A stretch of DNA of 8,090 nt from Candidatus Desantisbacteria bacterium CG1_02_49_89. Lineage in GTDB: Bacteria > Desantisbacteria > UBA1551. Position numbers and translations under genes: made by a program. This document shows positions 6,786 to 8,090 of the stretch, in pieces. The DNA lies in contig MNUP01000115.1 in NCBI GenBank assembly GCA_001871075.1, positions 1 through 8,090 on the forward strand, read 5' to 3'. The notes under the pieces are model-generated. The model had not been told where the DNA came from. It was given only the letters and a program-made list of their open reading frames with translations, and searched no databases. The first letter of the stretch is position 1. Each line of letters opens with the position of its first letter.

Positions 6786-6791
6786 TATACT
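6786..6791 (+). promoter_or_regulatory. Possible -10 box (TATACT) of an activator-dependent promoter
   Basis: TATACT matches TATAAT at 5 of 6 bases and is in an AT-rich stretch; TAATAT at 6783-6788 is an alternative. The sequence 17 bp upstream (GCCGAG) is not a -35 box, as expected for a promoter that needs an activator. If used, transcription would start near 6795-6798, right at the SD of the mini-ORF, which is tight; read-through from the regulator gene is an alternative source of this leader. Confidence 0.35.
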
Positions 6792-6807
6792 ATAGAAAGG
6801 AGATAGA

Positions 6808-6825
6808 ATGGGTGCGGGTAGTTAA
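6808..6825 (+). CDS. Five-codon leader ORF (MGAGS)
   Basis: ATG-GGT-GCG-GGT-AGT-TAA lies 5 nt behind a near-perfect SD (AAAGGAGAT, 6796-6804), by far the best SD in the window. The ORF is too short to make a protein in the usual sense. Its GCGGGT segment (6814-6819) can pair with the 5' arm of the terminator downstream, so ribosome occupancy here could affect RNA folding. A 1-frame-shifted reading (6809-6856) encodes WVRVVKETRTVSRSN and then TGA, so a frameshifted remnant of a small gene is also conceivable. Confidence 0.35.
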   Translation: MGAGS

Positions 6826-6870
6826 GGAGACAAGAACAGTTTCCCGGTCAAATTGAAAACATAAACCCGC
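6814..6870 (+). promoter_or_regulatory. Candidate antiterminator competing with the terminator
   Basis: GCGGGT (6814-6819) is complementary to ACCCGC (6865-6870), which is also the 5' arm of the terminator stem (its other partner is GCGGGT at 6887-6892). The two pairings exclude each other, the classic layout of attenuators and riboswitch expression platforms. Inside the loop, TTTC (6840-6843) can pair with GAAA (6855-6858). I do not recognise a known riboswitch consensus. The competing stem is 6 bp against 10 bp, so terminator formation would be the default. Confidence 0.35.
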
Positions 6871-6898
6871 TCTAACGAATATCTGAGCGGGTTTTTTT
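6863..6898 (+). terminator. Rho-independent terminator
   Basis: A perfect 10-bp stem, AAACCCGCTC (6863-6872) with GAGCGGGTTT (6885-6894), encloses a 12-nt loop and is followed by a run of seven T (6892-6898, overlapping the stem end). It is strong on the + strand. It either ends the GH116-DUF763-AraC transcript or acts as an attenuator in the leader of the secreted-protein gene at 6929. Confidence 0.9.
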
Positions 6899-6899
6899 A

Positions 6900-6925
6900 T
6901 TCAGCCGAAGGCGCTGAAGAGGTGA
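6900..6925 (+). promoter_or_regulatory. Hairpin abutting the SD of the secreted-protein gene
   Basis: TTCAGC (6900-6905) and GCTGAA (6913-6918) form a 6-bp hairpin with a 7-nt loop, ending immediately before the SD GAGGTGA (6919-6925). GAGG ends 6 nt before the ATT at 6929, an optimal distance, and no ATG, GTG or TTG lies at that spot. This SD position decides the start chosen for the downstream gene. Confidence 0.55.
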
Positions 6926-6928
6926 AAA

Positions 6929-8090
6929 ATTAAAAAGATATTTTTTCCGCTATTTCTGGGGTTTACTATGGCCTGCATTTTTTCTCCGTTGCATGGCCTT
7001 GCGCAGACTGTATCCGAGACTGATTCCTATTTTACAATCGCTGAGTCGTGCATGCCGGCTGACGGCATATCCACGCGGACTATCTCAGTTTACATCAAAG
7101 CCGCCACCCAATACAGCCCTTTATCCGGCAGACAGGTAACTCTGTACAGCAGCCGCGGTCCTGCAAGCGATACCGTTGTAATGATAAATGCCATTACAAA
7201 TGCCAATGGCCAATGCACCGGCCGGATCAGTTCAGCCTTTCCAGGCGAAGTCAATATTTACGGGATATGCGATACCGCGACTATAACCGAGAACTTAGTT
7301 ACAAACTGTTCTTTTGAAACAGGCGGTATCACAAGTGTTACCGGCTGGACCCTGGGAACAAACCACGGGCGAAACGTCGCCGCTTTCAAGTCCGGAAATT
7401 ATTCCCTGAGGTCTATATTTGCAGGCGCAGGAGGCACATCCAGTTATCCGACCAATCTTTTTGCTCTTGAACCCCACTCATACTACAGGCTGAAAGGCTG
7501 GATACGGGACGCGCAGACCGCAGGCAATGCCTATTTTGATGTCAATGATCTAAGTTATGACCTCATGTTGGGCGTGGTGAAGGATAACACCTGGCGTTAT
7601 ACTGAAGGGGACTGGAACAGTTATGCAAATTTCTCAGGGAGAGTCAGGTGCGTGACTGACGGCACTCCTGCCGGAACCGTATATTTTGATGCAATGCGTT
7701 TTTACAGGATTCCAACACTGACATTCCTGCCTGTTAAAGAAATCCCGATAGCGATTCAGGCAGAATCTACTGATATCAGGCATCTGGGCGGAGGATATGC
7801 AAGCAATCCGTCCAGAACCGGAGGCGTAAGCTCAGTTATTTGGGGCACCTTCTGGTGTTTTTATGGCGACAGTGAAAGGCTTATTGTATACTGCAGGGTT
7901 CCTCAGGTCTGGACCGGATTTGAGACTCAGTGGTTCAAAGTTTCAGTAAATGCTGTCGCTATGTATAACACGGCAAATATGGCTGTTTCAATAGACGATG
8001 CAAATACACAGTACTTCGCAGTTAACACAGCTACTGTGACGGTTTACACAACCAATACTTTCAGCCTGTCAGTCGGTTTTCATAAACTTG
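6929..8090 (+). CDS. Large secreted Big_1/carbohydrate-binding-like protein (3' partial), ATT start
   Basis: The frame is open from the TGA at 6923-6925 to the window end; 387 codons are seen. Read from ATT 6929, it begins with a full signal peptide: KK at 2-3, a hydrophobic core (IFFPLFLGFTMACIF) and GLA before Q26. ATG 6968, with a weak GGGG upstream, would leave only MACIFSPLHGLAQ, without positive residues. Residues about 29-118 match a bacterial Ig-like Big_1 (invasin/intimin) domain: DGIST at 45-49, then SGRQVTLYSSRG, TNANGQCTGRISS at 90-102, and PGEV. Residues about 122-261 look like a CBM_4_9-type beta-sandwich (NLVTNCSFETG, GWTLG, GNYSLRS, and VYFDAMRFYRIP at the end). From about 275 a third region (IQAESTDIRHLGGGYASNPS) loosely resembles CBM6/CBM35-type modules. 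It is probably exported and binds glycans or surfaces; no catalytic domain is seen in this part. It may be regulated by the adjacent AraC-type protein and the leader terminator. Confidence 0.8.
   Translation, partial: MKKIFFPLFLGFTMACIFSPLHGLAQTVSETDSYFTIAESCMPADGISTRTISVYIKAATQYSPLSGRQVTLYSSRGPASDTVVMINAITNANGQCTGRISSAFPGEVNIYGICDTATITENLVTNCSFETGGITSVTGWTLGTNHGRNVAAFKSGNYSLRSIFAGAGGTSSYPTNLFALEPHSYYRLKGWIRDAQTAGNAYFDVNDLSYDLMLGVVKDNTWRYTEGDWNSYANFSGRVRCVTDGTPAGTVYFDAMRFYRIPTLTFLPVKEIPIAIQAESTDIRHLGGGYASNPSRTGGVSSVIWGTFWCFYGDSERLIVYCRVPQVWTGFETQWFKVSVNAVAMYNTANMAVSIDDANTQYFAVNTATVTVYTTNTFSLSVGFHKL

Follow-up and report, generated by a model that had tools for sequence, protein, structure and literature searches.

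A putative ATT start codon for a large secreted-protein gene in a Candidatus Desantisbacteria draft genome

Standard gene callers are blind to ATT starts. We describe a putative case at the end of the window, the whole stretch of 8,090 nt that was analysed, which forms the beginning of the 11 kb contig C2 in a draft genome of 2.48 Mb and 150 contigs. The gene for a large secreted protein found there is, in the reading that we hold with moderate confidence, translated from the AUU codon at position 6929. To our knowledge, few AUU starts outside infC have been documented. In the present gene, a conventional call would cut the signal peptide and lead to the mis-annotation of the protein as non-secreted. 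If the start is real, this gene and hflX are examples of ATT starts from an uncultured lineage and show that such starts can be revealed from sequence by the combination of an intact signal peptide, in-frame stops and the position of the Shine-Dalgarno (SD) site; if the base is an error, the case exemplifies how draft genomes of uncultured organisms create apparent rare starts. All features of the window are given on the plus strand.

The start-codon site and the signal peptide

The bases around the proposed start read GCTGAA-GAGGTGA-AAA-ATT-AAA-AAG-ATA-TTT-TTT-CCG. The ATT codon (6929-6931), in frame with the signal peptide, is preceded by GAGG (6919-6922) and then by the six bases TGAAAA, an arrangement that the original prediction had described and that is seen directly in the sequence; a spacing of 6 nt is common in this genome. 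The SD site extends to GAGGTGA (6919-6925), a 7-nt anti-SD match. Based on about 1.33 Mb of stretches (54%) sampled from the same genome, a match of at least 7 nt to AAGGAGGTGA stands at usable spacing before 0.18% of background codon positions and before 42 of 532 (8%) ATG-started genes, and the SD before ATT 6929 exceeds chance. The last three bases of this site form an in-frame stop, TGA 6923-6925, which closes the secreted-protein frame upstream and thus precludes an earlier start, while the first in-frame ATG, GTG or TTG is the ATG at 6968-6970, 13 codons inside the frame; the lack of a canonical start at the proper place, as originally claimed, is borne out by both. At normal SD distance, ATT 6929 is the sole NTG or ATN codon in all frames, and GAGGTGA has no canonical partner in any of them, the GTG at 6922 lying inside the SD and in another frame. 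A search for an SD-sequestering hairpin over the ATT gave a fold no stabler than those of shuffled sequences (z = 0.40).

A translation begun at ATT yields (I/M)KKIFFPLFLGFTMACIFSPLHGLA-QTVSETDSYF, in which a KK n-region is followed by a hydrophobic core and a GLA-Q cleavage site, the cleavage being predicted by eye; the Sec signal peptide spans 25 codons (6929-7003). The translation agrees with the original prediction, which had called for a complete signal peptide from ATT and for its halving by ATG 6968: a start at the latter leaves MACIFSPLHGLA-Q, with half the hydrophobic core and without the basic n-region. Among paralogues whose N-terminus can be recognised, the nearest are encoded on contigs C10 and C83 of the same genome. 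The C10 paralogue has a canonical start, at a TTG or at codons further upstream, and its alignment with the ATT-started protein (39% over 121 aa, E 5e-20) begins at residue 2, covers the signal peptide and goes on into the mature domain; it is loose inside the signal peptide itself, as expected for such sequences. The C83 paralogue, cut by the contig edge within the signal peptide, has the mature N-terminus in common with the window protein. Because the C10 homology extends through the signal peptide, and because ATG 6968 lacks both an SD and an n-region, a protein start at or very near 6929 is well supported. The alignment of homologues, which had been proposed as a check on this position, gave a partial answer: the start of the nearest paralogue (C10) does not align with ATG 6968, and no orthologue for start comparison was found in 59 relatives, in 2 genomes of the phylum or in two scans of a collection of genome contigs. 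Only paralogues were found, and these have other starts.

The gene, its surroundings and its leader RNA

The window holds the 5′ part of the gene (6929-8090), identified from Pfam matches and from the continuation of the contig across 6 N. The frame runs past the window end at 8090 into this scaffold gap (C2:8091-8096), beyond which a WbsX/GH99-like domain (PF14307, 73.2 bits) and a further Big_1 domain are encoded in an open frame of 975 aa. Continuity across the 6 N is something that we infer, and the gene most likely continues beyond the gap into the WbsX/GH99-like domain and this other Big_1 domain. Its N-terminal part matches Big_1/invasin-D3 weakly, under the Pfam cut-off, and the middle part is unnamed. 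About forty related stretches are found in the genome, many within giant proteins. Upstream neighbours are a GH116-like secreted protein, a DUF763 protein and an AraC-type regulator. We regard the product as a large secreted protein that is probably carbohydrate-active.

The AraC gene and the start are separated by a leader (6786-6905). It opens with a promoter-like TATACT (6786-6791) that has a poor -35 element, followed by the strong SD AAGGAG (6797-6802) and a five-codon mini-ORF, ATG GGT GCG GGT AGT TAA (MGAGS, 6808-6825), the two together spanning 6797-6825 and having a putative function. A terminator-like hairpin, AAACCCGCTC/GAGCGGGTTT followed by a T run, lies at 6863-6898 (6863-6894 on a narrower delimitation), some 30 nt before the ATT. 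In the fold of a truncated leader, an antiterminator-like pairing of 6810-6819 with 6865-6873 (6810-6873) is exclusive with the terminator and overlaps the mini-ORF, this pairing being weak (z = -1.27). The leader is a possible transcription attenuator, and the terminator-like hairpin could just as well terminate transcription of the AraC gene. An Rfam search of the leader returned nothing near a gathering score, and no second copy or homologue was found in its own genome. The Big_1 paralogue on C10 is immediately preceded by a c-di-GMP-I riboswitch (RF01051; C10:5701-5778, 38.6 bits, gathering 35), and three more riboswitches of this class are found on contigs C114, C23 and C133. Given the riboswitch upstream of the C10 gene, at least one member of this paralogue group is likely to be controlled by its leader RNA.

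ATT starts elsewhere in the genome and rival explanations

Several other genes of this genome bear on the use of ATT. The infC gene has an ATT start behind AAAGGGGGTGA, and in one same-order genome ATA is found at the homologous place, both in agreement with the rare start codons for which infC is known; the genome encodes IF3. An ATT behind AGGAG is found at hflX (C29:9204), where the conserved first beta strand is included only from ATT and would be deleted by a start at the first canonical codon, a TTG. As homologues in other phyla have this strand shortly after the start (e.g. MNK-EKVVIVGV), hflX probably starts with ATT. The same probably holds for a 729-aa secreted WbsX-like protein (ITKRIFIMLLVLFAFTVSGVAE...) on contig C135 (L104 1725-3914, minus strand), whose ATT stands behind GAGGTGAGGGGG with no better start available. 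The infC, hflX and C135 starts make ATT plausible as a working start codon in this organism. A codon-blind test for an excess of ATT behind SDs did not reach significance (3/48 vs 41/2098, p = 0.07), most of its hits being ORFs that arise by chance or codons next to real starts. A DUF362-like membrane-anchored protein on contig C25 (L110, minus strand; ITIKKKYLVV) lacks an ATG, GTG or TTG over 59 codons and may start with ATC or ATA; its SD is weak.

It is possible, although in our judgement rather unlikely, that the true or ancestral start is an ATG at 6929 and that a single G-to-T change produced T 6931, either as an error in the assembly consensus or as a recent point mutation of a gene that is decaying or varying neutrally; the original prediction had named a sequencing error of ATG to ATT as the main alternative. 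With ATG, the site would read GAGGTGAAAA-ATG-AAA-AAG, a start of the ordinary type in this genome. The sequence comes from one draft assembly in 150 contigs, with a scaffold gap 1.16 kb further on, and other genes of the same families carry frame breaks or an in-frame TAG. Signal peptide and body are in different frames on contig C21 (L006) and apparently also on C116 (L097), and an in-frame TAG lies within the WbsX domain on C143 (L163); among these related large secreted proteins, either the genes are broken or the assembly is in error. A scan for out-of-frame signal peptides gave two doubtful hits and missed C21 and C116, so it yields no error rate. Against an altered base, the region is single-copy, and paralogue mixing is therefore unlikely; the intact, conserved infC and hflX of the same genome show ATT; and the remaining reading frame is intact up to the gap.

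The frame breaks near the signal peptide in related genes, together with the frequency of homopolymer indels among errors, also speak for a start at the GTG just upstream (6922), with one extra A in the run 6925-6929 arising from a sequencing indel or a real frameshift. As the sequence stands, GTG AAA AAT TAA (6922-6933) is in another frame and joins that of the gene only with one A fewer, in which case GTG AAA ATT AAA AAG would yield MKIKKIFFPLF, with AAGG (6908-6911) at a usable distance. We consider this very unlikely: an indel is required, the strong SD GAGGTGA overlaps the GTG and would go unused, and AAGG is a common 4-nt match, present at 19% of background positions. Least probable of all is translation from ATG 6968 with the upstream codons as untranslated leader. 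This first canonical in-frame start would be the choice of a gene caller limited to ATG, GTG and TTG, but, besides its missing SD and the truncated signal peptide that it leaves, the homology with C10 reaches upstream of it and the strong SD at 6919-6925 would have no partner.

For initiation at AUU 6929, which we prefer, the strong and well-spaced SD GAGGUGA would position the 30S subunit at the codon, and initiator tRNA would pair with AUU despite the third-position mismatch, giving a product that begins fMet-Lys-Lys and carries the full Sec signal peptide. A strong SD offsets the mismatch between the third position of AUU and the initiator anticodon, and IF3 counter-selects such complexes, which should keep output low. 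Initiation at this site would accordingly be expected to be weak and disfavoured by IF3, and expression may be low or IF3-dependent, the original prediction having pointed to low or regulated expression. We infer both the use of AUU 6929 by ribosomes and the correctness of the base. A broader proposal, which we regard as distinctly doubtful, is that the lineage uses ATT starts unusually often (infC, hflX and at least two large secreted WbsX/Big_1 proteins), that these genes form a set responsive to IF3, and that the choice of start codon serves to keep the level of costly, secreted glycosidase-like proteins low, here with an upstream transcription attenuator in addition.

Comparison with known rare starts

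The infC gene of E. coli, which encodes IF3, has an AUU start. The infC genes of E. coli and of the present genome, and that of the same-order genome with its ATA, resemble the secreted-protein gene in having a strong SD and no canonical start at the proper place, and differ in that they encode an autoregulated translation factor and have a conserved rare start, whereas the present gene encodes a secreted protein. The view of E. coli infC as the known example of ATT initiation, taken in the original prediction, proved too narrow, since rare starts are documented for pcnB, cvfC1, ccpN, citZ and S. aureus infC (PMC13009471) and, in the form of GTC, for sigR (PMC5472188).

The AUU start of E. coli pcnB (Binns and Masters 2002, as cited in PMC13009471) is, on the account given there, alike in being a chromosomal AUU start outside infC, where it limits pcnB expression; according to the same account, it differs in that the product is a cytoplasmic enzyme and the start was demonstrated by experiment. 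In Streptomyces, sigR has a GTC start repressed by IF3; the likeness is a rare start of a kind that ordinary gene callers misplace, and the differences lie in the other codon, the sigma factor that it encodes and the demonstrated repression by IF3 (PMC5472188). In S. aureus, cvfC1 starts with AUU, and ccpN, citZ and infC start with AUA; AUU and AUA starts behind extended SDs give about 10% of AUG expression in poor medium, and ccpN reaches up to 30% of AUG expression in rich medium (PMC13009471). As in the present gene, the rare starts of cvfC1 and ccpN stand behind an extended, strong SD (PMC13009471), but they are backed by ribosome profiling and reporters and are conserved among relatives, whereas the present start is predicted from sequence. 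Cases of AUU or AUA initiation behind a strong SD are thus already documented, and the present gene probably adds another.
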